Of a stretch of 64,000 nt of DNA, positions 49,456-63,256 are shown piece by piece (positions within the stretch are counted from its first letter, which is position 1; the number at the start of each line of letters is the position of its first letter). Both the position numbers and the translations under genes were made by a program. Source of the stretch: Streptomyces marianii (lineage in GTDB: Bacteria; Actinomycetota; Actinomycetes; Streptomycetales; Streptomycetaceae); contig NZ_VAWE01000002.1 of NCBI RefSeq assembly GCF_005795905.1, positions 186,001 to 250,000 on the forward strand, written 5' to 3'. The notes beneath the pieces were generated by a model. It ran no database searches. It saw only the letters and a list, made by a program, of their open reading frames with translations, and was not told the DNA's origin.

Positions 49456-51021
49456 CTACGCCGAGAACGCGGGCGGCCGGGGCGGCTTGGGAAGACGACG
49501 GGCGAGCTGCCTGGCTGCTTCTAGAACCGTTCGATCACTGTGGTAGGGCCCGATGATCTGGATGGCGAGCGGCAGTCCGTCCGCGGTCTTTCCAGCGGGG
49601 AGCACGAGAGAGGGCAGGCCAACGGGACTGGTCAGGTTGAGCCAGCCGGTCTGGTCGTAGTACGAGCGCTTCTGTCCGTCGACGGTGATGTATCGCTGAG
49701 GTGGCGGCGTGCTCGTCTGGTCGAGAACGGCAGCGGTAGGCGTGGCCGGCGTGATGAGGATGTCGTGCTCCGAGAAGTAGTTCTCCCAGGTCGTGCGGAG
49801 CTTCTGGCGGGCCTCATCGGCGACGCACCAGTCTCTGTGTCGCATGGTCCGGGAGTGGAGGAACATGCCGCTCGGGTCACCGGCCGGGATCTTCTCGGCT
49901 GCCTCGACCTCCGCGGCGAAGGCGGCATCGGTCGTGGCCGCGGACGAGGTGGCGTACATGAGTCGCTGGAACAGCGTGTCGCTCTCGCGGAAGTCGACGG
50001 GCCGGGTGGTGTCGTCGATGTCTGCGCCGGCGTCTCGGACGAGTTCGGTGACGTGCTGGAGCAGCGCGCGGGTGTCGGCGTCGACGTGGCAGTACGGGTC
50101 GTCGGCCCAGATCCCGATGCGGTAGTCGCCCAGCCTGCGCTTGGCCGGAGCCGGCAGGTCGACCTTCCAGCCGGCTCGGTCGGCGGGGGCCGGGGCAGCG
50201 AGGACGTCCAGGAGCAGAGCGAGGTCGTCGACGGTGCGGGCGATCGGGCCGAGCGTGAGCATGTCGCTGCTGGTGGACCAGCCGGGAGGACGGGGGATGT
50301 GGCCGCGCGTGGGCACGATCGGGCTCGCGCCGCGGGAGGTACGCAGGGCGTAGACACCGCAGTAGGCGGCCGGGAGGCGCAGGGATCCGGCGAGGTCGGA
50401 GCCGACCTCCAGGCTTGTGAGCCCTGCGGCAACGGCGGCGGCGGGACCGCCGGAAGAGCCGCCCGCGGTCCGCTGGGCGTCGAAGGGGTTCGCGGTCTTC
50501 CCGAAGAGCGCGTTCGACGTCTGGATGTCCTGGCACATCGCCGGCACGTTGGTGTGGCCGATGATGATCGCGCCGGCTGCGCGCAGGAGGGCGACCGCGT
50601 CTGCGTCGCGGTCGGGAACGTGCTCCGACAGGTCGGGAGAGCCGCAGGTCGTGCGCATCCCCGCGACCTCGAGGGCGTCCTTGACGGTCATCGGCAGACC
50701 GTGGAGGGCTCCGAGTGGCTCGCCGGTCCGGCGGAGGTGCGTGTCGGCCCTGTCCGCGGCAGCGCGGGCGCCGTCGGCGTCCAGCGTGACGATGGCGTTG
50801 AGAGCCGGGTTCGCTCGCGTGATGTGAGCGAGGTGCTGTTCGAGCAGGCGGCGGCTGGTGATCCGGCCTTCGCGTAGTGCGGTGAGCTGCTCGCCGGCGG
50901 ACGCCAGATGCAGCTGCGACGTCTGCCATGGGTGGCGGTGACGTGCGCTGGCTGGAGTGGCTATGGCGGTGACCGCGGCAAGAGCCGTCGCAGCGGTGAG
51001 CACGGTTCGGCGGAGGATCAC
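49456..51021 (-). CDS. Secreted amidase (amidase signature family)
   Basis: 521 aa from GTG 51021, which overlaps the upstream stop (GTGA). The N-terminus is a signal peptide (LRRTVLTAATALAAVTAIATPASA). The Ser-cis-Ser-Lys triad is recognisable: Lys in MTVKDALEVAG, Ser in GGSSGGP and Ser in GSDLAGSLRLP (a small change from the usual GSDxGGSxR). It hydrolyses a carboxamide outside the membrane. It is the last gene of the EspR-like/IrrE/7TM operon and could be its extracellular effector. Confidence 0.88.
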   Translation of the reverse strand: MILRRTVLTAATALAAVTAIATPASARHRHPWQTSQLHLASAGEQLTALREGRITSRRLLEQHLAHITRANPALNAIVTLDADGARAAADRADTHLRRTGEPLGALHGLPMTVKDALEVAGMRTTCGSPDLSEHVPDRDADAVALLRAAGAIIIGHTNVPAMCQDIQTSNALFGKTANPFDAQRTAGGSSGGPAAAVAAGLTSLEVGSDLAGSLRLPAAYCGVYALRTSRGASPIVPTRGHIPRPPGWSTSSDMLTLGPIARTVDDLALLLDVLAAPAPADRAGWKVDLPAPAKRRLGDYRIGIWADDPYCHVDADTRALLQHVTELVRDAGADIDDTTRPVDFRESDTLFQRLMYATSSAATTDAAFAAEVEAAEKIPAGDPSGMFLHSRTMRHRDWCVADEARQKLRTTWENYFSEHDILITPATPTAAVLDQTSTPPPQRYITVDGQKRSYYDQTGWLNLTSPVGLPSLVLPAGKTADGLPLAIQIIGPYHSDRTVLEAARQLARRLPKPPRPPAFSA

Positions 51022-52238
51022 GTACGAGCTCCTGATGTGGTGCTGGCGGGGTCGGTGACGGAGGTCTCCGCGCGTGGCGGGGTGAAGAAGCCGGCGACGC
51101 GTTCGAGGTGACGCAGCTCGTCTTCGTAGGACGGCAGGGGCAAATCCGAGTCCGCGTACTCGGCCGGGTCGCTGACCGGCGCGCCGGCGTGAAGGCGCGT
51201 GAGCGCGGCCTGGAGCTGGTCGGCGGTGACGGCCGCGATCAGGTCGGCATCCGCGAGCCCTTCCTGTCGGCGGAGGGCTTCGGACTCGGCGCGTACGGCG
51301 GGGTCCAGGTAGATGCGGAGCAGTTTCTGGCCGTGGCGGATCTCGGTGCTGCGGCGCTGCAGGGGGAAGTTGACGCTGCGGCCTTGGAGGAGGGCTTCCT
51401 GCTGCCGGTTCGGCTGGAGCAGACTGATGCCGGGGTGGGCCTCGGTGAGCGCGGTCCACAGGCCCCGCAGCCGGCGGTAGACGAGGTGGGTGTTGACCCA
51501 TGCCCTGAGCGAGTCCGCGCGGAGGGCCAGCACGGGCAGGAAGTAGCCGATCTGGGTGAGGGTGGCGCCGATGTCGCCGCAGAGCCAGGCGTAGGGGTCG
51601 AGGCTCTTGACGCTGAAGCCGAAGATCCCTCCGAGGGCACCGGCGATACGGATGCCGCTGTAGCCGAGGGTGATGGTCGCGCCGACTGCTACGACCCTCA
51701 GGCCGGTGGCGATCGACCGGTTCGACGCGGAGCGGGCGTACTTCCAGCAAGACCGGACGAGGTACAACTCGGCTGCGGTGTATACGCCGATGTAGAGGAA
51801 CAGGTAGGCCTGGAAGTACGGGTCGTGCGCGTAGTAGAGCGAGAAGTCGGTGGGGCGCTGCGCGGTGGGGGTGAGGAGGTTGAACAGCACGCCCATCGCG
51901 GCGATGACGAGTCCGGCGGCGAGGAGCAGGTGCCGGGTGCGCCGACGCGCGGCGTCGGCGGGCTTGGACCAGTACGCCAGGACGCTGGCCTGGAGGGCCA
52001 GGACCAGCACCACACAGCTCTGGGCGATCGGCACGGCGATGTTCGGGACGCCGAAGACACCGTCGATGCGCACCCACACCCACGTGAGCGAGATGGCGTA
52101 GCTGAGCGCGGAGAACCCGTAGGTGAAGCCCAGAGCGACCAGTGCCGGGTTGCGCCGGTGCTTGCTCATGTCACGAAGCAGGAGAAGGAACCCGGTGCCG
52201 GCGATACCCAGGCACAGCGGGTGAAGTATGTCTTTCAA
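51018..52238 (-). CDS. MAB_1171c-type seven-helix membrane protein (module A)
   Basis: 406 aa. Seven hydrophobic helices occupy residues ~5-22, 31-54, 68-90, 103-122, 140-160, 175-203 and 218-238. A cytosolic region of ~165 residues follows, with the family-type segment LRGLWTALTEAHPGI and EIRHGQKLLRIYLDP. This matches the actinobacterial MAB_1171c family. A 7TM domain plus cytosolic tail looks like a sensor. The paralogue at 54797-56032 has the same layout. It follows the IrrE-type protease gene by 15 bases. Confidence 0.8.
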   Translation of the reverse strand: MKDILHPLCLGIAGTGFLLLLRDMSKHRRNPALVALGFTYGFSALSYAISLTWVWVRIDGVFGVPNIAVPIAQSCVVLVLALQASVLAYWSKPADAARRRTRHLLLAAGLVIAAMGVLFNLLTPTAQRPTDFSLYYAHDPYFQAYLFLYIGVYTAAELYLVRSCWKYARSASNRSIATGLRVVAVGATITLGYSGIRIAGALGGIFGFSVKSLDPYAWLCGDIGATLTQIGYFLPVLALRADSLRAWVNTHLVYRRLRGLWTALTEAHPGISLLQPNRQQEALLQGRSVNFPLQRRSTEIRHGQKLLRIYLDPAVRAESEALRRQEGLADADLIAAVTADQLQAALTRLHAGAPVSDPAEYADSDLPLPSYEDELRHLERVAGFFTPPRAETSVTDPASTTSGART

Positions 52239-52253
52239 GGTGCTCTGTTCCGG

Positions 52254-52808
52254 TCAGCGCAGCAGCGTGCGGGCGATGGGATCGTCGGCCTCCGGCGCGC
52301 GGGCTGCCGCGGCGCGGGACCTGCGGACGTGCTCCTGCAGGAGGGAGCCGATCATCTCGGCCTCGAACTCGTCCGGCTCGGTGAAGCGGGTGCGACCGAG
52401 GATCAGCTGGGCAGTGGCGGGATCGATGTCCGTGATGAGGCCACTGAGGCTGGAGAGGTCCAGGGACTCCTTGGAGTCCCGGTGCCTGAGCATGTGGGCG
52501 AACTCGTGGCCTGCGACGACCTCGGCGTACGCCGGGCTCACTCCCTCGTCGTAGAAGAGGTAGTCAGTGGTGGCCGTCGCCAGCCACGCGCCGCACGCCG
52601 CCACCGGCTCCAGGGAGTCGGGGTCCGACACGTCCGGAGTGAACGGCATGAGACGGATCTCTCGACCCGTGAGCTGCTCCATGAAGGGCACGAGGTCGAG
52701 AACACTGTCGACCGCCGGCAGTCCCAGGTCCTTGACGAAAGCACGGCTACGCTCTTCGATCTCCGCGGACTTGTCCGCAGGCCGACGCGCACGACGGCGA
52801 TGCCACAT
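52254..52808 (-). CDS. ImmA/IrrE-type metalloprotease (module A)
   Basis: 184 aa. Zinc-binding HEFAH in VVAGHEFAHMLRHRD (about residue 101-105) and a downstream acidic ligand in FEAEMIGSLL fit the ImmA/IrrE family, whose members cleave XRE-type repressors (ImmA-ImmR in ICEBs1, IrrE/PprI-DdrO in Deinococcus). Here the likely target is the EspR-like HTH encoded directly upstream, but that is inference. Confidence 0.83.
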   Translation of the reverse strand: MWHRRRARRPADKSAEIEERSRAFVKDLGLPAVDSVLDLVPFMEQLTGREIRLMPFTPDVSDPDSLEPVAACGAWLATATTDYLFYDEGVSPAYAEVVAGHEFAHMLRHRDSKESLDLSSLSGLITDIDPATAQLILGRTRFTEPDEFEAEMIGSLLQEHVRRSRAAAARAPEADDPIARTLLR

Positions 52809-52854
52809 GCGTGTTCCTCTCGAGATCCCCCTGGAGCCGAAGCGTAGTAGCAGG

Positions 52855-53349
52855 TCAGGAAAGATCGTCTTCCGGGGCGGGCGGCAGGCCCTCCTGCGCC
52901 CGTACGGCCTCGATCTTCTTCATCACCTCGTTGAGGCTCTGCGGGGAGAGCCCGATCGCACGAAGGGCGACCTGCTTCACACCCGCCTGACTCAGCTCAC
53001 GCAACAGCTCGAACTGGCCAGTAACCCTACGGGTTGTCTCGTCCTCGACGAAGAAGGCGGCCTTGACGCCGAAGAACTTCGCGAACAGCGGGACCAGCTG
53101 CAGCCCTGGTGTCTTGGCGCCTTTGCGGAGCTGCCCGATGTAGGCGCCTGTGATGCTTGTCTCACCATACGAAGAGATTGTCCGGGCGACGTGCGCGTTG
53201 CTGTACTCCTCCGCCCCCGGCGGGCGCACGCGGTCGAACAGGTAGTTCAGGCGCTCGGCGAAGGAGGCCCCCGGGCCGGGAACGGGAACCGGCGGAGCCG
53301 CCTCCGGCGTCTCGCTCTCCAGCTTCTCGTTCACTCGGGCCACAGTCAC
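52855..53349 (-). CDS. EspR-like HTH regulator (module A)
   Basis: 164 aa from GTG 53349 (GAGAGA upstream). Residues ~30-155 align by eye along their whole length with mycobacterial EspR: FAERLNYLFDRVRPPG, ITGAYIGQLRKGAKT, LFAKFFGVKAAFF, and the C-terminal helix GVKQVALRAIGLSPQSLNEVMKKIEAVR. EspR is a nucleoid-associated regulator that loops DNA and controls ESX-1. A Pro-rich N-terminal tail of ~28 residues is extra. It begins the module A operon. Confidence 0.83.
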   Translation of the reverse strand: MTVARVNEKLESETPEAAPPVPVPGPGASFAERLNYLFDRVRPPGAEEYSNAHVARTISSYGETSITGAYIGQLRKGAKTPGLQLVPLFAKFFGVKAAFFVEDETTRRVTGQFELLRELSQAGVKQVALRAIGLSPQSLNEVMKKIEAVRAQEGLPPAPEDDLS

Positions 53350-53370
53350 TGCTCTCTCTCGAAGTGCCTA

Positions 53371-53407
53371 AACTATAGTTGACGCTGTGATGGCTGGGAG
53401 ACTACGT
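53371..53407. promoter_or_regulatory. AACTATAGTT palindrome and TTGACG promoter-like elements
   Basis: The 10-bp perfect palindrome at 53371-53380 is strikingly AT-rich for this DNA and lies 21 bases upstream of the EspR-like GTG. Its TATAGT could be the -10 of that gene. On the other strand TTGACG (53379-53384) is followed 17 bases later by CTACGT, a possible rightward promoter. A natural site for autoregulation of both directions. Confidence 0.45.
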
Positions 53408-54122
53408 TCACCTGGCGAGAAACGGGGGGTCTCCTATGGGGGCGGCACCCCTGCGATGAACGACCAGAGGTGTACCAGTGATGAGCATGCGGCGGGCCGG
53501 GCAAGTCCGGCCTCTCCTGGGCTCGCTGGGCACCATCCGATGCATGCCGGCGCACCAAGTCGATGCCGGTGCGGATATTACGCAGAGTACCCACGATCAA
53601 GGCAAGCATGCGGCGATACCTCTTTCTGCCGCGGCCTGTCGGTCGGCAGCCGCACGGCAGGAGGCGGGCCGGCGGCCGCGTACCGGCGGAGCGCCTTACC
53701 TGCCAGGAGTGGGTGCGACTCTCACCTCGCGCCGCAGCAGACGCCGCTGGCGAAGAGAACCGAACATGCCGCTGCCCCGTCTCCATCCAAACCCATTATG
53801 AGCTGGGCAAAGCTGCGACGTCCGCTCTGAGGTCCGGCCCGGCGTATCCCATTTGCGACTCACCTCCGTTTTCTGCATCGCCAGACACAGTGCCCCGAAG
53901 TGGGAGCCCGTCAGGTAAGTGGAATTCGTGGTTGCATTTGCGTGACCCGGTGGACATAGTGGGCGCGCTGCGCAACCGAATGCTTGCGCATGGTCGCCGC
54001 GTTTTGATCACGCTGAGCGACAGGGGGGCTCCGAAAGCACAGGGCGGCCACTACTTGCTGGTCGCGCGAGCGGTGCGGGGCGTGCCCTCGGACGTGGATC
54101 CGGGCAGGGCGAGGAGGACGGG
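53408..54122. other. Gene-free region between divergent modules
   Basis: About 700 bases without a convincing gene. Several overlapping frames stay open on both strands, but none has a ribosome site together with a protein-like sequence. A small hairpin, GGCCGG-GCAAGT-CCGGCC (~53492-53509), is visible. A long leader or an unannotated small RNA is possible, but I see no proof of either. Confidence 0.5.
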
Positions 54123-54788
54123 ATGATGAAATGGGTTCCACGACAGACGACCACCCAGTGCGTGGAGAGCCGCGGCTCGCGCGCAGAACCGGGCGGTAGA
54201 ACGCGACAGCTCGCGAACGCTGTCATGCGGTGGCGCAGGAACCCTGCACGGCGAGACCTCATGAAGGAGTGCGAGAAGCTCCTCGCCGATCTGCCGGTGC
54301 CCACCCCCTTCAGCGTCGAGGCACTCGTCCGAAACATGGAGCACGCACTGCAGCGTCAGATTCGGCTCGTGCCGTTCGACGACCCAGACGGCGGGCTAGG
54401 CACAGCCTGCGGCCTTCGAGTCAAGACACCAGACTTCACGGTCGTGCTCTACCGCCGCCGAATCAGCCGCAACCAGACCGAGCACATCATCCTCCACGAA
54501 CTGGCGCACGAGTGGTTGGACCACGGAAGCACCCTGACCGCGGAAGAGACCGAGCGATACGTCCCTGAACACATCCGGGAGGAAGTCCTTCGCCGGTTCC
54601 CCTCGGCTCTGGTCCAGGGACGCGTCAACTACGACAGCCCTGAGGAGCAGCAAGCCGAGCTGTCAGCTTCCCTGATCAAGCGGTTGGCGCGCCGTCAGCC
54701 GCCGACCGGCGACGACATGGTCAGCCTCCTGGAGTCCTCGCTTTCTCATCCCGTTGCTCCGCCGCGGCGTGGCTCCAAACACGAATAA
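54123..54788 (+). CDS. ImmA/IrrE-type metalloprotease (module B)
   Basis: 221 aa from ATG 54123 (GAGGAGG five bases upstream); homology to module A's protease starts only at MRWRRNPARR, so ATG 54225 is an alternative start. Zinc motif HELAHEWLDH near residue 125 and a later acidic ligand (EEQQAELSASL) are intact. Length and layout parallel 52254-52808. It is followed nine bases later by the seven-helix protein gene, as in module A. Confidence 0.82.
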   Translation: MMKWVPRQTTTQCVESRGSRAEPGGRTRQLANAVMRWRRNPARRDLMKECEKLLADLPVPTPFSVEALVRNMEHALQRQIRLVPFDDPDGGLGTACGLRVKTPDFTVVLYRRRISRNQTEHIILHELAHEWLDHGSTLTAEETERYVPEHIREEVLRRFPSALVQGRVNYDSPEEQQAELSASLIKRLARRQPPTGDDMVSLLESSLSHPVAPPRRGSKHE

Positions 54789-54796
54789 CGGACGGC

Positions 54797-56032
54797 ATGC
54801 TCGACTTCTTCAGGTACCTGACCGCTGCAGTGATGACCCTCATTGCAGTGTGGCGATTCCCCGCCGTCCGGTACGGCGACGCGCACCGCCGCGCCCTCTG
54901 GGGCGGCTACGCCGGATTCTCCGTGGCCTTGTGGCTCTACACGCCGGCCGCGATGGATGCGGTGGACCGCATCCCCGTGATCGACCTAAACGCTCTCCTC
55001 AGGCACTTCGCCAGCACCGCGGCGATCATCGCGTCCTTGACGTACGTGGCGACCAGCTACGGCAAGAGCTCCGAGGCCGTGACGCCCCGGCACGTCACGG
55101 TGTCCCGCTGGATAGCCCGCGCTTCCTACAAAGCAGGCGCAATCGGCGTGACTCTGCTCACTTTCCTCTTTTTCTTCGTGGTAGACCGCCAGCGACAGAG
55201 CGAAGACTTCCTCATCGACCACGCAGGGGAATGGGGCGCCGCAGCGTACATGAGCGTCTTCTATTTCTTCCCGTTGGTCACCACGGCAGTCTGCGGCTAC
55301 CAGTGGTCAAGGGGAGCGCGAGCCGCCGAGACGACCAGTATGCGCATCGGCCTCAGGCTCATGGGTATCTCCATGTGGATGGGGCTCCTCCACACGACGG
55401 CTCGAATCGTCATCGTGTGGACGGCGGTGCTCTTCCCGATGAGCCGTTCCACAGTGGAGACGCTCATCGATCTCACGGCAATGTGGATGAACTTGCTCTT
55501 CCTCATTGTGGCGGTGGGCGCGAGCATTCCCACGACCAGCGTTGTAGCCGCTCGCTGGAAGACATGGAAAACCCTCTACCGGCTCCACCCGCTCTGGTTC
55601 GACCTGGTGAAGGCCTTCCCTGGAACCAGCCTCTACCCGCCCGGGTCGCGCCTGGCCGAGCTGATCCACATGCGGGTCCCAAGCGACGTTCGCCTGGACC
55701 GATGGACCCAGGACATCGCCGACGCCTGCGAGAAGCTCCGGTACTACGCCCCGGAGGCGCTCTTGTGGACTGCGGAAGACGCAGCCGCCTCGCACCCCGA
55801 TCCCGAGCCGGCGGCCGAGGCGTACTGGATCGCCGCAGCCCTCCGTGCTGCTGCCACCACGAAGGCCAGCCAGTACGCGACCGGTCCGCTTCAGGAGAAA
55901 CCTTTCGTTGACACGAACAGCGAGGCGGCCTGGCTCATCCGGGTGAGCAAGGCGTACACGCTCATCGCCCCGGACGCCGCTCAGGAGCTTCTGCAGCAGT
56001 CCGCAGAACTGAGCCTTGAATCGGACGCGTGA
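54797..56032 (+). CDS. MAB_1171c-type seven-helix membrane protein (module B)
   Basis: 411 aa. Seven predicted helices in the first ~245 residues (for example GVTLLTFLFFFVV, SVFYFFPLVTTAV, MWMNLLFLIVAVGA), then a cytosolic part containing YRLHPLWFDLVKAFPG and DVRLDRWTQDIADACEKL, the same family segments as in module A. Overall identity between the two copies looks low, so the duplication is ancient or the copies were acquired separately. Weak ribosome site; probably translated by coupling with the protease gene. Confidence 0.8.
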   Translation: MLDFFRYLTAAVMTLIAVWRFPAVRYGDAHRRALWGGYAGFSVALWLYTPAAMDAVDRIPVIDLNALLRHFASTAAIIASLTYVATSYGKSSEAVTPRHVTVSRWIARASYKAGAIGVTLLTFLFFFVVDRQRQSEDFLIDHAGEWGAAAYMSVFYFFPLVTTAVCGYQWSRGARAAETTSMRIGLRLMGISMWMGLLHTTARIVIVWTAVLFPMSRSTVETLIDLTAMWMNLLFLIVAVGASIPTTSVVAARWKTWKTLYRLHPLWFDLVKAFPGTSLYPPGSRLAELIHMRVPSDVRLDRWTQDIADACEKLRYYAPEALLWTAEDAAASHPDPEPAAEAYWIAAALRAAATTKASQYATGPLQEKPFVDTNSEAAWLIRVSKAYTLIAPDAAQELLQQSAELSLESDA

Positions 56033-56350
56033 AAAGCTGCAACCGGAAATGCGGGTTCCCGTAATTCTGTACCAGTTCCTTGAGCTGGGAAATTCGATTC
56101 CATTTGGAGGGTACCTGGCATAGGGAAGTCCAGGGTGCCATGCGGCATCACTGAATGTGGACGGGGTCACAAGCTCCGCAAAGTGGTGAATGGTACCGTG
56201 GGTCAGATGTGGGTGGCATCGTTTTCCGCCCTGTAGATACCGCCGACCCTGGCAAGCGAAGCGCAGGCGCTGCCGCCGCCACGCGTACGCCGGGGCCGGG
56301 AAGCTGTCCAGTACGGGCGGCGACCAGATTCTCAGCACTGGAGTTCCTGC
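56033..56350. other. Gene-free spacer before HAD gene
   Basis: 318 bases with no convincing gene. GGTACC occurs twice (about 56115 and 56192) and CGGGTTCCCG forms a small hairpin near 56052. The length suggests the HAD gene has its own promoter, which I could not place. Confidence 0.45.
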
Positions 56351-56980
56351 ATGTCTCAGCGCACCGGCCTCGTCCTCGACTTCGGAGGCGTGCTCACTAC
56401 GCCGCTCCTGCCCGTGGTGATCGACTTCGAGCAGCGCGAAGGCCTTCCCGAGGGCGCCTGCATCGCCGCCCTGTACCTGGACGAGGAAGGCGTCCGGATC
56501 ACCAGCGACCTCGAGCGCGGAGCCGTCACCCAGACGGAGTGGAATGAGATCGCCGGCAAGAAGCTGGGAGTCTCTCCCGACAACCTGATGGGCAGGATCT
56601 TCGGCGGCCTGCGCCCGGAGCCGCTGCTGATCAACGCGGCCGCCGCGGCAAGGCGAGCGGGGATCAAGGTGGGCATCCTGTCCAACAGTGTGGGGCTCGC
56701 TCCCTGGGACCTCTACGACGGCTACGACCTGGAGAAGCTCTACGACGTCGTCGTGATCTCCGAGCACCACCAGTTGCGCAAGCCCGACCCTGAGCTCTTC
56801 GAGATCACGCTCAAGCTCATGGAGATGCCCGCCGAGGAGTGCGTGTTCGTCGACGACACCGAGGCGTACGTCCAGGCGGCGGAGCAGCTCGGTTTCGCAG
56901 GGGTGTACAACAAGGACCCCAAGCAGACGGTGGCTGCCCTCTCGAACCTGCTGGGCGTGGACCTCACCGCCGCGCCGTAG
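56351..56980 (+). CDS. HAD-superfamily hydrolase
   Basis: 209 aa. Motif I is DFGGVLT (nucleophile Asp9), motif II is ILSNS, motif III Lys lies in QLRKPDPELFE and motif IV is VFVDDTE. The DFGG opening, with Gly in place of the usual second Asp, is typical of the epoxide-hydrolase-N-terminal/haloacid-dehalogenase-like branch. Small-molecule phosphatase or dehalogenase activity is likely. It is downstream of module B but separated by 318 bases; a strong terminator follows. Confidence 0.85.
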   Translation: MSQRTGLVLDFGGVLTTPLLPVVIDFEQREGLPEGACIAALYLDEEGVRITSDLERGAVTQTEWNEIAGKKLGVSPDNLMGRIFGGLRPEPLLINAAAAARRAGIKVGILSNSVGLAPWDLYDGYDLEKLYDVVVISEHHQLRKPDPELFEITLKLMEMPAEECVFVDDTEAYVQAAEQLGFAGVYNKDPKQTVAALSNLLGVDLTAAP

Positions 56981-57014
56981 TCGTCCCCCGGGCGGGCGCC
57001 GCCCGGTTCAGCCG

Positions 57015-57068
57015 CCCCCGGCCGTCGTCACCTCGTAGCGAGGTCACGACGGCCGGGGGTTTGTGTTT
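57015..57068 (+). terminator. Strong hairpin terminator after HAD gene
   Basis: CCCCCGGCCGTCGT pairs with ACGACGGCCGGGGG, then one C-C mismatch and six further pairs (ACCTCG/CGAGGT) around a TAG loop (57015-57059), followed by TTTGTGTTT. It may also serve the convergent HTH gene. Confidence 0.85.
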
Positions 57069-57186
57069 CTGGGGGCTGATCGAGCCTAGGCCGTGCGCCT
57101 CGGAGCCGTGTGCGACGTCCCCGGCAGGCCCTGCTGCGACGCCGCGTGGGCAGTTGGGCGGCGTGTCCGGACCCGCTGCCCGCGGG

Positions 57187-58062
57187 TCACTCCTCGCCGT
57201 GTGTGTCCGGCAGCTTGTTCTTCAGCTCTCCGACGACCTCGTTGATCTTGGCCATCATGCCGGCCGACAGGCCTGCCTGGTTGCCGCGGGCGGCCAGACC
57301 GAGGATCTGACCTTGCTGAATCGACCCGAGGAAGCGAATGGCTTCCAGGAACTCACCGGCCGCGGGACTCAGCTCCGCGTCGTCTTGGAAGAGAGCGACG
57401 TCGACCTGGAGGGCATGAGCCAGCCCGGCACGGACTGCGTCCGAAGCAGTCGTCGTGGCGCCGGAACGGAGTGAGGCGATGTCGGCGGCGGTTATGCCGG
57501 CCGTGCCGCTGTGCTCGTTGACGGCCCGTGCGATCTGCTCGTCGGACGGAGGCGTCCGGCCGACGTACCCGTGCTCCAGGAGATAGTTGATCTTCTCGCC
57601 GACCGTGCGAGGTGCGGACGGCCGCACATCTCGCAGCGACCGCACCCGGCGTATCCCGAAGGACACGTCCTGAGCGGCTAGCAGCTCCTCCGTCGTGACT
57701 CCGTAGGCGTCCGCGAGCGGGCCCACGTAGGCATCCTGGAGCCGGCGCCTGCCGGACTCCGCGTTGCTCAGCGGTACGCGACTGGCGTTGATGATCTCGG
57801 AGGCCTGCGCCACGCTGAGGCCGGCGTCGCAGCGAAGGAGCTGCAGGTCGACGGGTCCGTCATGAGGGAAGAGCACATCGAGGTCCTGGCCAAGTGCCTT
57901 GGCGATGCCAGGGAGTTTCTCCCCCTTGGGGAACTCCTCGCCGTTCTCCCAGCGCGCCACGGTCGGGCCGCGGACGCCAACTCGCGCGCCCAACTCCTTC
58001 TGGCTGAGCTCCTTACCCCGTCTGACAGCCCGAACTCGGCTGCCGTCGAACTGACGTGGCAC
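57187..58062 (-). CDS. Three-domain regulator: two XRE HTHs plus EspR-like domain
   Basis: 291 aa from GTG 58062 (AGGAG five bases upstream). Residues ~4-60 are a classical XRE HTH (VRRGKELSQKELGARVGVRGPTVARWENG). Residues ~70-125 look like a second, weaker HTH (DAGLSVAQASEIINASRVPLSNAESG). The C-terminal ~130 residues (INYLLEHGYVG ... ITAADIASLRSGAT ... FLEAIRFLGSIQQGQILGLAARGNQAGLSAGMMAKINEVV) follow the EspR-like plan of the 52855-53349 protein. It converges on module B and is the likely repressor partner of that module's protease. Confidence 0.75.
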   Translation of the reverse strand: MPRQFDGSRVRAVRRGKELSQKELGARVGVRGPTVARWENGEEFPKGEKLPGIAKALGQDLDVLFPHDGPVDLQLLRCDAGLSVAQASEIINASRVPLSNAESGRRRLQDAYVGPLADAYGVTTEELLAAQDVSFGIRRVRSLRDVRPSAPRTVGEKINYLLEHGYVGRTPPSDEQIARAVNEHSGTAGITAADIASLRSGATTTASDAVRAGLAHALQVDVALFQDDAELSPAAGEFLEAIRFLGSIQQGQILGLAARGNQAGLSAGMMAKINEVVGELKNKLPDTHGEE

Positions 58063-58230
58063 ATGAACTCCTGCGACTTGGCGGTCTAGACCCTGGGTGG
58101 CGACGACAGAACCATAACGGCAACCGGCTTGATCGATCCACACATCTACCGTACGTTTCTGTATCGCACCTGATGGTGGGGCTCTGCATCGCGCGTCGAT
58201 CTTATGCCCTGGTTAGTCCATCGCTGAACT

Positions 58231-58328: not shown

Positions 58329-59576
58329 ATGAGTGTTGCATCAAAGCGCCCCTCCCCGCAGGACCCCAGCCGAATTCGGCGTCATGTCGTGTTTGGCACG
58401 GCGGTGGCGCTGGGTGCGGGCATCCTGCTGGCGCCGCAGGCCGTCGCGGCGGACAAGTGGGGCCCGGGATACCTGATTCCGGACAGCACCGGCAAGCCGG
58501 ACACCTCCCACATCGGCGCGTACAACGTGCCCGGAGTCGACGGCGTCGCGTACTGCGCAGACCCGGAACTCGCCGGCCCCGACGCCGCCGACGGATACAG
58601 CTCCGCCCAGACCGTCACCTCCTGGACCTCCAAGGCCACCGGCAAGACCGCTTCGGCCGAAGACCTCGCCCGGGCCGCATACGTGCTCGGCAAGTACGGC
58701 CAGACGAAGAACGACGAGCAGGCCGCCGCCGTCGACGCCGTCGTCTACACCTACCTCGAGGCCGGCTCCACCTACGCACTGCCCAACGGCAAGCGGGCCC
58801 TGGAGCGTCTGGGCTACCCCAACGTCTCCCCGGACGCGAAGAAGTGGGCCACCGGCTACCTCAACGAGGCCGCCATGTTCGCCGGCCCCTACAAGATCAA
58901 CATCAAGCCGGCCGACGAGCAGCTCAAGGCCGGGGCGAAGACCTCTGTCACCCTCGACGTCACCTCCGCCACCGGCCACAAGGTGCCCGGCGTCAAGCTC
59001 GACCTCGACGTCTCCGGCGCGGCCGCCGGCGCCGCGAGCGTCACGACCAACGCCGAGGGCGTCGCCACCGTGAGCCTGACGCCCGCCGAAGGCGGCACGG
59101 TCGACTTCAAGGCACTGGCCAAGACGCTTCCCGCCTCGCAGCTGCGCTCGTTCACCCCGACCAACGCCAAGGCCCAGCGCCTGGTCCTGGCAGGCGGCTC
59201 CTCGAGCGCCCAGGCCGAGATCCACCTCACCACCCACAGCCCCAAGGGCGGGCTGATCGTCACCAAGACCGCCGCCGACACGAAGAAGCCGCTCGCCGGC
59301 GTCGAGTTCGCGGTCAAGGACAGCGCCGGCAAGACCGTCTCCACCGGCACGACCGACACCAACGGGACGTGGAAGGTCGACGACCTCACCCCCGGCACCT
59401 ACACGGTCCACGAGGTGAAGGCGGTCGAGGGCTACCAGCTCGCCGCCGACCAGCAGGTCACCGTCACCGACGGCGCCAAGGCCGACGTCGCGGTCAAGGA
59501 CATCAAGATCCCCGAGCAGCCGAAGCCGAAGCCGCGCCCGGTCACCATCCCCGTCCTGCCGCAGACCGGCGCCTGA
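58329..59576 (+). CDS. Thioester/SpaA-type surface protein with truncated sorting signal
   Basis: 415 aa. Signal peptide (VVFGTAVALGAGILLAPQAVAA). Residues ~70-190 fit a TQXA thioester domain: Cys in GVAYCADPEL and Gln in NDEQAAAVDAVVYTYLE, which would form a covalent Cys-Gln bond able to attach to host or surface amines. Then come an Ig-like repeat and a SpaA/prealbumin-like repeat (GGLIVTKTAADTKKPLAGVEFAVKDSAG). The chain ends in IPVLPQTGA with the stop directly after the LPxTG-type motif; the usual hydrophobic helix and basic tail are missing in frame but seem present in another frame (see findings). Confidence 0.85.
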   Translation: MSVASKRPSPQDPSRIRRHVVFGTAVALGAGILLAPQAVAADKWGPGYLIPDSTGKPDTSHIGAYNVPGVDGVAYCADPELAGPDAADGYSSAQTVTSWTSKATGKTASAEDLARAAYVLGKYGQTKNDEQAAAVDAVVYTYLEAGSTYALPNGKRALERLGYPNVSPDAKKWATGYLNEAAMFAGPYKINIKPADEQLKAGAKTSVTLDVTSATGHKVPGVKLDLDVSGAAAGAASVTTNAEGVATVSLTPAEGGTVDFKALAKTLPASQLRSFTPTNAKAQRLVLAGGSSSAQAEIHLTTHSPKGGLIVTKTAADTKKPLAGVEFAVKDSAGKTVSTGTTDTNGTWKVDDLTPGTYTVHEVKAVEGYQLAADQQVTVTDGAKADVAVKDIKIPEQPKPKPRPVTIPVLPQTGA

Positions 59577-59705
59577 CCGCCACTGCGCACGCGTTCACCG
59601 CGGGCCTGACCGTCGTCGTCGCCGGGGTGGTGACCCCAGCCCCCAGCCGATCACCACCCCGGCCGGCCGCCCGGACCGCGCCGCCCTCACTCGCAGGAAT
59701 CACCG

Positions 59706-60533
59706 ATGCCTCGCACCACCAGCAACTCCGAGTCCACCGACAACGCCTCCTCCCGCGAGTCCGCCCCCCGCTCCAACCGGCACCGCCTCACGCTCACCGC
59801 GGTGGCTGCCACGGGCATCACCTTCGCCGCCCTCCTGGCCCTGCAGGCCGGTCACGACTCCGGTGGCAGCTCGCCGGCAGCCGTGAAGTCCTCCGCCGCG
59901 CCGGCGCCCACCGTGCACACGCCGGACCCGCTGACCACCTCCTCCGCTCCCACCGGCGACGTCGCGAAGCCGGCCGACAACACCAGCACCTCCCGCGACG
60001 CAGCCACCCGGACCCTGTCCGACTGGAGCGCCGGCAACCCGGCCGCCAGCGGCAAGCACGCGGTGGGCAGCAAGCCCCGAAGCGGCCCGGGTGGCCCCAT
60101 CGGCGAGGTCCTGCGCATCCCCGCCCTGGGCAAGGACTGGGCCCAGCCGGTCTACGACGGGGTCGGAGACAAGCAGCTGCGGGCCGGCGTCGGACACTTC
60201 CCGACCACCGAGGAGCCAGGCCAGATCGGCAACTTCGCGATCGCCGGCCACCGCTCCGGCGTCGCCGACCCCGCCTTCCGCGACATCGACCGCATCACCA
60301 CCGGCGCCGAGATCCAGGTGACCACCGCGCACCGCATCACCTACACGTACACCGTCACCCGCGTGCACACCGTCGCCCCGACGGACGTGAACGTGATCGC
60401 CCAGGTACCCGGCCGGCCCGACGCCACCCCCACCAAGGCCAAGCTCACCCTCGTCACCTGCTGGCCGGCCAACGGCCACTCCAAGCGAGTTGTCGTGGAG
60501 GCCGACCTCGTCTCCGCCAAGGGGGGTGCCTGA
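59706..60533 (+). CDS. Class E/F-type sortase
   Basis: 275 aa. One N-terminal membrane helix (LTLTAVAATGITFAALLALQAG), a Ser/Pro/Thr-rich stalk, then the sortase barrel: His in AIAGHRSG, catalytic Cys in LTLVTCWPANG and Arg in HSKRVVVEADL. It would cleave an LPxTG-like signal, presumably that of the adjacent surface protein. It lies 129 bases after that gene. Overlaps the next gene by 1 base (TGATG). Confidence 0.88.
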   Translation: MPRTTSNSESTDNASSRESAPRSNRHRLTLTAVAATGITFAALLALQAGHDSGGSSPAAVKSSAAPAPTVHTPDPLTTSSAPTGDVAKPADNTSTSRDAATRTLSDWSAGNPAASGKHAVGSKPRSGPGGPIGEVLRIPALGKDWAQPVYDGVGDKQLRAGVGHFPTTEEPGQIGNFAIAGHRSGVADPAFRDIDRITTGAEIQVTTAHRITYTYTVTRVHTVAPTDVNVIAQVPGRPDATPTKAKLTLVTCWPANGHSKRVVVEADLVSAKGGA

Positions 60534-61019: not shown

Positions 61020-62408
61020 GTGCCCACGACCCTTGCACCCCCGCGGCCGACGCCCTCGGCGTCCGCCGCGGAGCATGCCGTCGCCGGCCACCGCGTGCCC
61101 TCCAACGGGCAGTGGATGTCCACGACGGCCGGCCGGATCGCGCCGAGCGGAGAGGCGTGGCTCGAAGCCGTGTACTGGTTCTACAAGTACGGGCCCTACT
61201 CCTCCACGAGCTCCCACGGCCCGAAGAAGTTCGGCGACACCACCCTGCGCATGGCGAGGAAGATCGCCCACCTCACCGAATGCCGTCCCAGCGTCGGCAA
61301 GCTCGTCGAGTGGCTGAACCTCTCCAAGCGCACGGTGCAGTACCACCTCGGCATCCTTCGCGAGAGCGGCCTGCTCACCTACCGCTCCAAGGGCACCCGC
61401 GTCTGCGGCGTCGGCAGCCGGGCAAGCGAGTTCGAACGCACCATCCCCCAGATCTTCGACGACGCCGCAGGACTGCGTACCGGCCCCTCCGACACCCTCA
61501 TCCGCTCCGTGCGCGGCTTTGCCCCGGAGCGCATCCCGCTGCTCAAGGAGCTCCACACCGCCGCCCGCAAGCCCCGCAGGCAGAAGCGGACAAAGAGGGC
61601 CAACCGCCCTGCGCGGCGGACGCCTTCCGGTACCTCGTCTTGCACCCCAATGGTGGGTAGTACTTCTAGCTCTTCTACTGCAGGTGATCTCTCCTCTCCC
61701 TCTGAGAGCAAGCTCGCCAGCGGGAAGCGCAAGTCCCCCACCCCGAAGAAGCCCACCCCCAAGCTCAACAAGACCGGGCGCCGCTACCAGCTCGCCGCCC
61801 AGCTCATCCAGCAGATCGGCTGGCTCGGGCGCGCCGCCACCCCGCGGATCGCCTGGATCTGCCGGCACGTCGCCGACGCCGGCTGGAGCGCGGACGAGGT
61901 CATCGCGGTCGTCGGTCTCGAAGCCCCCGCTCGCCGGGTCCACCGCCCCTCCGGCTTCCTCGCCAGCCGCCTCAAGGGCGCCCACCTGCTCTACGACACC
62001 CCCGCCAAGCGGGCCGCCCTCGTCGACCACTGGCGCGACACCCGGCGTGCAGAACGCGACCGGCACGCGGAGTGGTGGGCCGACGACTGCCGCATGCCCG
62101 CCAGCCGCGCCGTCGCCCGCGAGGTGGAAGCCGCCTTCGCCCAGCTGCAGCAGCCGACCGACCCGGCGCCGGCCGAACGTGAACTCGACCTCGACGACGA
62201 CGGCCTGGTCGACCTCAAGCAGCTGACCCGCGACGAAGTCATCGAGCTGCGGGCCGCCGCGCTCAAGGACCCCGCCCTCGTACGCGCCACCGTCAACACC
62301 TGCGGCGAAACCTACGCCCGCCGCCTGTACACGTCCGCCCTGGTCGACCAGGTCCAGCGCGTCGCTCGACTCGGACGCACCGTCGTCCACGGATGGAGGC
62401 CAGCGTGA
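61020..62408 (+). CDS. Winged-helix, replication-initiator-like protein
   Basis: 462 aa from GTG 61020. Residues ~85-130 are a winged HTH (LTECRPSVGKLVEWLNLSKRTVQYHLGILRESGLL). A low-complexity Ser/Pro/Lys linker (~200-250) follows, then a second helical domain (RYQLAAQLIQQIGWLGRAATPRIAWICRHVADAGWSADEV). The layout is like helix-turn-helix replication or regulator proteins of actinomycete plasmids; I infer this partly from the DciA-like gene coupled behind it (GTGA overlap). It could be a transcription factor. The linker DNA has unusual T-ending codons. Confidence 0.6.
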   Translation: MPTTLAPPRPTPSASAAEHAVAGHRVPSNGQWMSTTAGRIAPSGEAWLEAVYWFYKYGPYSSTSSHGPKKFGDTTLRMARKIAHLTECRPSVGKLVEWLNLSKRTVQYHLGILRESGLLTYRSKGTRVCGVGSRASEFERTIPQIFDDAAGLRTGPSDTLIRSVRGFAPERIPLLKELHTAARKPRRQKRTKRANRPARRTPSGTSSCTPMVGSTSSSSTAGDLSSPSESKLASGKRKSPTPKKPTPKLNKTGRRYQLAAQLIQQIGWLGRAATPRIAWICRHVADAGWSADEVIAVVGLEAPARRVHRPSGFLASRLKGAHLLYDTPAKRAALVDHWRDTRRAERDRHAEWWADDCRMPASRAVAREVEAAFAQLQQPTDPAPAERELDLDDDGLVDLKQLTRDEVIELRAAALKDPALVRATVNTCGETYARRLYTSALVDQVQRVARLGRTVVHGWRPA

Positions 62409-63256
62409 CCACCGACAAGCCCACCGGCGTCGACCTCGCCCGGGTCGCCCTGGCCGCCGCGAAAAAGGCCGCCAAGGAGCGCGGCGCCCACACTTCGGCC
62501 AAGCGGACCGTCAAGCGTCGCCCTGCCACACGCGGAGACGGCCGCGAGCCCATGGGTCTCGGCAGCGCCCTGGCCCAGCTCGTCACCGAACGCGGCTGGG
62601 AGGCCCCCGCGGCCGGCGGATCGGTCATCGACCGGTGGCACACCATCGTCACCCCCGACATCGCCGACAACCTGCGCGCCGTCGCCTACGACCCCCACAC
62701 CGGCCGCCTCGACCTGCTCCCCGCCACCCAGGCCTGGGCGACCCAGGCCCGCCTGATCAGCGCCCAGCTCATCCGGCAGGCCAACTCCGCGGTCGGCACG
62801 ACGACGGTCCGCCAGATTCGCGTACTTCCGGCCGGCTCACGCCGCACCCCCGCCGCAGAAGTACCCGCCGAGCCGGCAGCGCCCATCGCGCGCGGAGAGA
62901 TCCGCACCCGGGAGACGGCCTCGGACGGCTACCGCCAAGCGCAGGCAGCGATCTCCCCCGTCCTGGCCGAACCGACCGGCGGACCTGTCCGCACCCGGGA
63001 CGACGGCTGCGACGGCTACCAGCAGGCCCGGGCCCTGATCAGGACCCTGCCCGCCACACCCGCCGAGCCGACACCCGTCCGCACGCGGGACGACGGCTGC
63101 GACGGCTACCGCAAGGCGCTCGCGAACATCGGCGCCCCCGTCCCCGACCTCGAACAGCCCAAGGCGCAGGCCCACACCCGGAAGTCAGCCGGATACCAGC
63201 TCGCCCGCCGCGCGCACCTGGAGGGCAAGAGCCGCAGCCGAGCCCGCACCACGTGA
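62405..63256 (+). CDS. DciA/DUF721-domain protein with C-terminal repeats
   Basis: 283 aa from GTG 62405. Residues ~50-145 fit DUF721/DciA (LGSALAQLVTERGWE ... VIDRWHTIVTPDIADNLRAVAYD ... LDLLPATQAWATQARLISAQLIRQAN). DciA recruits the DnaB helicase in most bacteria. After it come four repeats of the form R-T-R-x4-DGY-x2-A (around residues 171, 197, 222 and 258). The normal dciA lies beside recF/gyrB near oriC; this is therefore a second, element-borne copy, probably used for replication of this replicon. Confidence 0.75.
   Translation: MTTDKPTGVDLARVALAAAKKAAKERGAHTSAKRTVKRRPATRGDGREPMGLGSALAQLVTERGWEAPAAGGSVIDRWHTIVTPDIADNLRAVAYDPHTGRLDLLPATQAWATQARLISAQLIRQANSAVGTTTVRQIRVLPAGSRRTPAAEVPAEPAAPIARGEIRTRETASDGYRQAQAAISPVLAEPTGGPVRTRDDGCDGYQQARALIRTLPATPAEPTPVRTRDDGCDGYRKALANIGAPVPDLEQPKAQAHTRKSAGYQLARRAHLEGKSRSRARTT

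Follow-up and report, generated by a model that had tools for sequence, protein, structure and literature searches.

Several described bacterial systems pair a zinc protease with an XRE-type regulator. In the available part of a 2009 survey of toxin-antitoxin-like pairs, the protease of ImmA/ImmR, a relative of the one studied here, is reported to cleave or inactivate its XRE-type regulator, protease/XRE pairs are described, and XRE pairs with membrane proteins are set aside (PMC2701414). The same action is described, in the accessible text of another study, for PprI/DdrO and CapP/CapH, the latter controlling an immune operon of the cyclic oligonucleotide-based antiphage signalling systems (CBASS) and being activated by single-stranded DNA (PMC10904395). 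The DNA-binding protein EspR is presented, in the available part of its description, as nucleoid-associated and autoregulated (PMC3315491). Here, we analysed a window of 64,000 nucleotides of Streptomyces marianii (positions 186,001 to 250,000 of contig NZ_VAWE01000002.1), the whole stretch to which our coordinates refer. It contains two modules, A and B (Table 1), each encoding a seven-transmembrane (7TM) protein of the DUF6545/MAB_1171c family, a zinc protease resembling IrrE and ImmA, a regulator related to EspR, and an enzyme. A reading made from the sequence alone (hereafter the sequence-only reading) had listed these parts, apart from the enzyme of module B, and family matches and coordinates confirmed them.

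The unit of 7TM protein, protease and EspR-like regulator is real, old and widespread, and has two-part relatives. It is nearly certain that its parts work together. We propose, with a probability of roughly 0.6, a route from the 7TM protein as receptor to the protease, and from there to the EspR-like regulator. Each module would be a dedicated membrane-to-gene signalling unit. The receptor would sense a small molecule, probably lipophilic or extracellular, and its cytosolic helical DUF6545 domain would hold and control the stand-alone IrrE/ImmA-type zinc protease. Once active, the protease would cleave the neighbouring EspR-like regulator, and the module, together with the enzyme gene tied to its 7TM gene, would then be expressed differently. 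The enzyme (an amidase in A, a HAD hydrolase in B) would probably make, modify or remove the sensed molecule, or act in the response.

Co-occurrence and gene order

We sampled 80 genomes from the order, 65 of which belong to the genus of the window, and found DUF6545 in 71; among 14 control genomes there was one match, below the cut-off. The protease profile (A5, built from 86 of the 90 proteases found, omitting L029, L059, L068 and L069) matched exactly the same 71 genomes, the remaining nine having neither family. The EspR-like profile (A10) matched 76 of the 80 genomes at E ≤ 0.001. With a cut-off of E ≤ 1e-10, which we chose once the table had been inspected, it matched all 71 DUF6545 genomes and a single one of the nine without DUF6545. 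At a wider scale, DUF6545 occurred in 42 of 236 genomes of the class (19 of 99 genera) and in 10 of 296 genomes drawn from the phylum, all of them from the class of the window.

Among the matches listed, 116 of 150 7TM genes had a protease gene on their own strand no more than 4 kb away (93 for the 100 top-scoring ones), against 0.45 pairs expected by chance. Chance adjacency is ruled out by this count together with the identical set of 71 genomes. Neighbourhoods were counted in 80 loci of the order, which hold 82 of the 150 listed 7TM matches, mostly the best-scoring ones; short duplicates of longer loci (L001-L004, L014-L021) were excluded, L066 had no called 7TM gene, and the gene calls come from our own script, which can miss genes. 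The protease gene was directly upstream of the 7TM gene, on the same strand, in 69 of 81 cases, with a gap of at most 20 bp in 63 of these pairs and a 4-bp overlap in 25. Within four genes, a protease was found for 77 of the 81, an EspR-like gene for 64, and both for 62. Outside the order, we analysed 20 loci with 22 of the 28 class-draw matches from beyond the window's genus, leaving aside six weaker ones: in all 22 cases the protease gene immediately preceded the 7TM gene, and an EspR-like gene was at most four genes away.

The sequence-only reading had put forward such a three-part unit, to be abandoned if neither conserved co-occurrence across actinomycetes nor cleavage or interaction were seen; co-occurrence is conserved (71/80 genomes; 22/22 genes outside the order). 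It also knew of no described system with these three parts, and we found none in the literature searched, by title and start of abstract, a search of limited coverage.

The distance correlations across 89 modules were 0.49 for protease and 7TM, 0.44 for regulator and protease, and 0.27 for regulator and 7TM, all three higher than the permuted maxima (0.15-0.22, 500 permutations). This order is as would be expected if the protease linked the two other proteins in a chain.

The protease

The residues H101, E102, H105 and E147, i.e., the HExxH motif and a downstream glutamate that is probably the third zinc ligand, were invariant in all 86 aligned proteases. The predicted structure has the IrrE fold, with residues 11-160 aligning to the catalytic part of IrrE, and CapP is among its best structural matches. 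Foldseek alone gave a weak result (best E = 0.0079), and re-alignment of its list gave a clearer one. The Pfam profile Peptidase_M78 scored 14.1 bits for the A protease, below the gathering cut-off of 22, and did not match the B protease. Hence, we call the protease IrrE/ImmA-like and not a member of Pfam M78; so worded, the ImmA/IrrE-type assignment of the sequence-only reading holds. Since the protein has about 184 residues and its model aligns to the catalytic part of IrrE, a sensor probably acts in trans.

The likeness to CapP also bears on another explanation: the unit could regulate stress responses or defence in the manner of CapP/CapH or of toxin-antitoxin pairs, the 7TM protein being an effector in the membrane by which the cell is killed or arrested once the repressor is cleaved. 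PADLOC matched capH to the regulators of modules A (E = 0.0038) and B (E = 1.2e-6), and capP to the B protease (E = 0.031), and both modules lie on a plasmid-like contig. The eight module proteins scanned included no CBASS effector. However, the matches among these eight are weak or at the level of the helix-turn-helix (HTH). Metabolic enzymes, rather than nucleases or pores, make up most of the linked genes that were scanned, and many of the sampled loci are on contigs larger than 1 Mb. We regard this explanation as improbable. A single-protein query of viral contigs returned no close relative of the protease.

The 7TM protein

Both 7TM proteins pass the cut-off of the MAB_1171c NCBIfam model (100 bits, Table 1), and their Pfam DUF6545 scores (86.5 and 90.2 bits) exceed the cut-off of 24.4. 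No Pfam family of 7TM receptors or G-protein-coupled receptors (GPCRs) matched them at E ≤ 0.1. The predicted structure has a GPCR-like arrangement of seven helices, and the 50 structural matches listed after re-alignment of Foldseek's list, which is not exhaustive, were receptors or designed GPCR-like folds. Foldseek's own list, with a best E of 0.093, includes a rhodopsin entry. In an alignment of 91 of the 94 proteins (A4, omitting L085, L087 and L095), loops 1, 3, 5 and the tail were net positive and loops 2, 4, 6 net negative. This charge pattern gives a predicted topology with the N-terminus outside and the C-terminus inside, and hence a conserved cytosolic tail, at about residues 246-385, fused to the 7TM domain.

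In relatives, members of the unit are annotated as transporters, toxins or hypothetical proteins, and NCBI names the 7TM family "putative transporter". The 7TM protein might thus export or import the substrate or product of the enzyme, the protease/EspR pair regulating the operon on an internal signal, as IrrE and CapP do. Protease/EspR pairs without a 7TM protein exist, and a linked gene that tracks the 7TM protein is also expected for a product-specific transporter (both below). Yet, no transporter was among the 50 listed structural matches (a list that leaves room for one), the 7TM domain carries the conserved cytosolic tail, and the 7TM gene is the one closest to the protease gene, with the short overlap in 25 of the 69 adjacent pairs. 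A transporter is unlikely in our view, and we favour a receptor.

DUF6545 is not mentioned in the literature searched, a weak negative given the thin coverage of subscription papers and preprints. We found a single mention of MAB_1171c, in a biofilm study in whose available part the mutant has its biofilm mass reduced by about half (PMC8707978).

The gene downstream of the 7TM gene

A same-strand gene was found at most 350 bp downstream of 72 of the 94 7TM genes. Pfam and NCBIfam scans of cluster representatives, not of every gene, provided labels for 57 of the 94: cytochrome P450 (13), PAP2 phosphatase (12), amidase (9), short-chain dehydrogenase (6), NUDIX (4), an NsdA-like regulator, which is not an enzyme (4), FAD oxidoreductase (3), amidohydrolase (3), and HAD hydrolase (3, all in one 7TM clade). 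A methyltransferase and an aldo/keto reductase are among the genes seen once each, and in three loci (L024, L033, L034) the 7TM gene is followed by the EspR-like gene and the protease themselves. The nine label classes (57 rows) required nine changes on the 7TM tree, against a minimum of eight and a shuffled mean of 38.2, an agreement to which near-copies contribute. P450 and PAP2 modules occur in several separate places of the tree (4 and 3 changes). Such tracking of the 7TM tree is what a fixed pairing of every type of receptor with a single type of enzyme would produce. Judging by these sequence comparisons, the gene after the 7TM gene is a fourth, clade-specific part, mostly a predicted enzyme. 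The sequence-only reading had noted neither this part nor the GPCR-like arrangement, the protease/EspR pairs lacking a 7TM protein, or the apparent tie to the mycobacterial espR locus (the last two below). One NUDIX-type module (L011:2606-4877) has as neighbours a P450 gene and a gene whose annotation is that of a ScbR-type autoregulator receptor; a link to butyrolactone-like signalling is possible.

The regulators and a candidate operator

The module A regulator matches EspR from the PDB over residues 25-154, i.e., over most of the protein (phmmer, E = 1.2e-18). The match of the module B regulator is weak (E = 0.0085) and confined to the C-terminal half, residues 180-300 of the longer open reading frame (ORF). 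We propose that the EspR-like protein of module A is both the substrate of the protease and an autoregulator.

Within 200 bp upstream of EspR-like genes, the sense motif GTCAAC was found in 31 of 73 cases, against 23 of 468 control genes, and GTCAACTA in 11 of 73 against 0 of 468, enrichments that are inflated by related promoters. The motif is directional: its reverse, GTTGAC, is not enriched (8/73 and 38/468, respectively). It differs from the EspR consensus, TTTGC[TC][GA], given in the available part of the published work (PMC3315491). The 13-mer GTCAACTATAGTT upstream of the module A regulator is a candidate operator. The 9.0-Mb genome has no second copy of it at zero or one mismatch, and a single copy would, if this site is indeed the operator, fit local autoregulation or another local role; as a reversed control pattern has three matches in the genome, this rarity proves nothing by itself. 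A palindromic operator was rejected, as GTCAAC and GTTGAC separated by 2-12 positions occur upstream of none of the 73 regulators. The sequence-only reading had suggested that the two modules may cross-talk. Control of both through a common site is unsupported: the candidate operator of module A has no copy upstream of module B.

Loci that depart from the three-part unit

For 31 of the listed proteases no listed 7TM gene was within 6 kb, and 20 of these loci were fetched. The EspR-like gene was adjacent to the protease gene in 19 of them, and in 17 (L271-L286, L288) the stretch held an EspR-protease pair and no 7TM protein of the family. A two-part version without the receptor thus exists. L289 holds two 7TM genes that are not next to the pair, and in L287 and L290 the protease adjoins a protein with seven hydrophobic stretches that the 7TM profile missed. 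In the one locus of this set that was scanned with Pfam (L271:6447-8964), the conserved pair is near a 4'-phosphopantetheinyl transferase, a metallophosphatase and an MmyB-like regulator.

Conversely, 31 of the listed 7TM matches had no listed protease, and 20 of their loci were fetched to represent this divergent 7TM group. Of the 29 7TM genes they hold, 26 have a protease within four genes (17 directly upstream), eight have an EspR-like gene within that distance, and six have both. The substrate in this group would hence have to be another protein, or be encoded elsewhere. The gene after the 7TM gene is a FAD_binding_3 oxidoreductase in the three loci scanned (L291, L293, L298), and a gene of 465-486 codons takes this place in 10 of the other 17.

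In a different reading, the three proteins form a complex and the EspR-like protein is not cleaved: the protease would process the 7TM protein or the secreted enzyme, or serve as a non-proteolytic switch. The tightest coupling is indeed that between protease and 7TM protein, and the EspR-like gene is often missing in the divergent group. On the other hand, the relatives with a target stated in the available parts of the literature act on XRE-type regulators, and among the 20 proteases that lack a listed 7TM gene, 19 have the EspR-like gene next to them. We give this reading little credence, and retain cleavage of the EspR-like regulator as the probable output.

The mycobacterial espR locus

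In the family draw, we took the genus g7 to be Mycobacterium from the identity of its EspR; that of L167 matches PDB EspR sequences with E = 6.7e-73. In L165-L167 espR is directly beside a gene encoding 218 aa, and in L161-L164, as in other genera, it is beside the 7TM and protease genes. Among the 30 best loci of those listed in this draw, 19 have a protease and/or 7TM gene within 1.5 kb of espR and 11 do not.

We classed 80 mycobacterial loci, the best 80 of 285 relatives, M. tuberculosis not being among them. The 7TM gene is beside espR in 17 (with the protease called in 16), e.g., in Mycolicibacterium novocastrense and M. setense. In 62 others, e.g., in M. leprae, M. szulgai and M. simiae, espR is next to a relative of the 218-aa gene, without 7TM or protease; in the last one the contig ends too early to classify it. 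In a FastTree phylogeny of the flanking protein and EspR, from which three loci without the flanking gene (L227, L229, L243) were dropped, the label changes once (15 with, 62 without), at a branch whose support of 93 is under the 95 mark. Taking the other genera, which are outside that tree, as outgroup, the simplest history would be a single loss of 7TM and protease in one mycobacterial lineage; independent gains beside espR are a possible alternative. We take the lineage without the two genes to be the slow growers, and M. tuberculosis espR presumably adjoins Rv3850. The espR locus of mycobacteria appears to be what is left of such a unit.

Modules A and B as old paralogs

The A and B proteases share 29% identity (E = 1e-12), the 7TM proteins 25% over 158 residues (E = 2e-7), and the HTH proteins match with E = 0.006. 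In the midpoint-rooted tree of 94 7TM proteins, the two fall on either side of the deepest split: A clusters with eight other amidase-linked modules (support 99), and B with two other HAD-linked modules (support 100). We conclude from these comparisons that the modules are old paralogs. The sequence-only reading had called them duplicated; if this is taken as a recent tandem event, the 7TM tree rules it out.

A plasmid of NBC_00239 carries the same back-to-back A/B pair. On plasmid pFRL6, the back-to-back partner of module A is a module of a third kind; its enzymes bear the annotations FAD monooxygenase and squalene/phytoene synthase. One further module of this third kind is on the 8.4-Mb contig C1 of the source genome, with a shortened DUF6545 gene about 10 kb away (L005:16228-16725) that encodes 165 residues without the seven-helix part; a gene near it resembles, by eye, a cytochrome P450. 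As in the window, two modules are neighbours at L155, L156, L023, L027, L010 and L006, in a tandem or head-to-head arrangement.

Gene layout in the window

The window is part of contig C2, apparently of 338,184 bp, in a genome of 9.0 Mb. Relatives of the locus were found on linear Streptomyces plasmids, and the contig is plasmid-like. The minus-strand genes of module A come in the order EspR-like regulator, protease, 7TM protein and amidase; by ORF coordinates, the start of the amidase overlaps the stop of the 7TM gene by 4 bp. In module B, the operon of protease, 7TM protein and HAD hydrolase is convergent with the regulator. The ORF of the latter opens at 58143, and the start in Table 1 is that suggested by an annotated relative in NBC_00239. 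A promoter and terminator scan of 53300-54300 found nothing.

Table 1. Features of modules A and B (positions in the window).
Feature	Position	Strand	Evidence or remark
Module A linked amidase, apparent signal peptide (by eye)	49456..51021	-	Pfam Amidase, E = 2.5e-99
Module A DUF6545/MAB_1171c seven-helix membrane protein, cytosolic helical tail	51018..52238	-	NCBIfam, 205.5 bits
Module A zinc metalloprotease, IrrE/ImmA-like, 184 aa, HEFAH motif; little more than a catalytic domain	52254..52808	-	
Module A EspR-like DNA-binding protein, 164 aa	52855..53349	-	phmmer match to PDB EspR
Candidate operator GTCAACTATAGTT	53371..53383	-	~34 to ~22 nt upstream of the module A regulator
Module B zinc metalloprotease, IrrE/ImmA-like, HELAH motif; position of the start codon uncertain	54123..54788	+	29% identity to the A protease; included in the family alignment
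Module B DUF6545/MAB_1171c seven-helix membrane protein	54797..56032	+	Pfam DUF6545, E = 2.1e-25; NCBIfam, 138.1 bits
Module B linked HAD-family hydrolase	56351..56980	+	Pfam Hydrolase, E = 2.6e-14
Module B regulator, N-terminal XRE HTH region and EspR-like C-terminal half	57187..58062	-	Pfam HTH_3, two stretches

Genes for a SpaA-like surface protein and a sortase (58329-60533) are divergent from the module B regulator. They may be its target operon, because the same order recurs after the B-type regulator on the plasmids of NBC_00239 (L006) and MMBL 11-1 (L011). Further on (61020-63256) come genes for an HTH protein and a DciA/DUF721 protein, with similar pairs near B-type modules of NBC_00239 and NBC_01304; this is perhaps a plasmid replication region.

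Weighing the proposed route

Several points weigh against a route from receptor to protease to EspR-like regulator. The 17 EspR-protease pairs without a 7TM gene, out of 20 loci, imply that the protease can do without this receptor, and only 8 of the 29 7TM genes of the divergent group have an EspR-like neighbour. The family name given by NCBI is that of a transporter. Profiles A5 and A10 were built from genes beside 7TM and protease genes of these same genomes, so that the agreement at the level of genomes is partly built in; the counts of gene positions are less affected. Plain co-inheritance alone could produce the distance correlations. Finally, M. tuberculosis EspR is described, in the part of the study available, as nucleoid-associated (PMC3315491), a role that needs no cleavage.

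The unit is present in most of the sampled genomes of the order (71 of 80), yet its function is undescribed in the literature searched. If the proposal is right, it adds a new class of receptors to bacterial signalling, the enzyme tied to each receptor offers a route to new signal molecules, and the origin of EspR is explained. More tentatively, the 7TM proteins might make up an actinomycete receptor family with a GPCR-like fold, each clade matched with an enzyme making or removing its ligand and acting through an IrrE-type protease on an EspR-type regulator; the EspR of slow growers would then be an orphan left by one loss of receptor and protease.

Comparison with known systems

In ImmA/ImmR of ICEBs1, as in the unit, a zinc protease, presumably belonging to one fold class with ours, is encoded beside an XRE-type regulator. 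It differs in having two parts, with no membrane receptor and no linked enzyme, and it responds to an internal signal. In IrrE (PprI)/DdrO of Deinococcus the sensor parts are within the protease itself, whereas the protease of the unit is essentially a catalytic domain. We know of no 7TM protein in CapP/CapH. The 7TM proteins share with animal GPCRs the seven-helix arrangement with the N-terminus outside and the C-terminus inside, which is also that of the bacterial 7TMR-DISM receptors and sensory rhodopsins; unlike in GPCRs, the proposed output is a protease, and there is no sign of G-protein partners. EspR (Rv3849) has, to our knowledge, no partner receptor or protease, but the module A regulator is related to it over most of its length, and mycobacterial loci carry, or have seemingly lost, the protease and the 7TM protein. 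The logic proposed here, from a membrane sensor to a zinc metalloprotease to an HTH repressor, is that of BlaR1/BlaI and MecR1/MecI. A Pfam scan found no penicillin-binding sensor domain in either 7TM protein. BlaR1 and MecR1 combine the penicillin-binding sensor and the protease in one protein, whereas in the unit sensor and protease are separate genes of other families.

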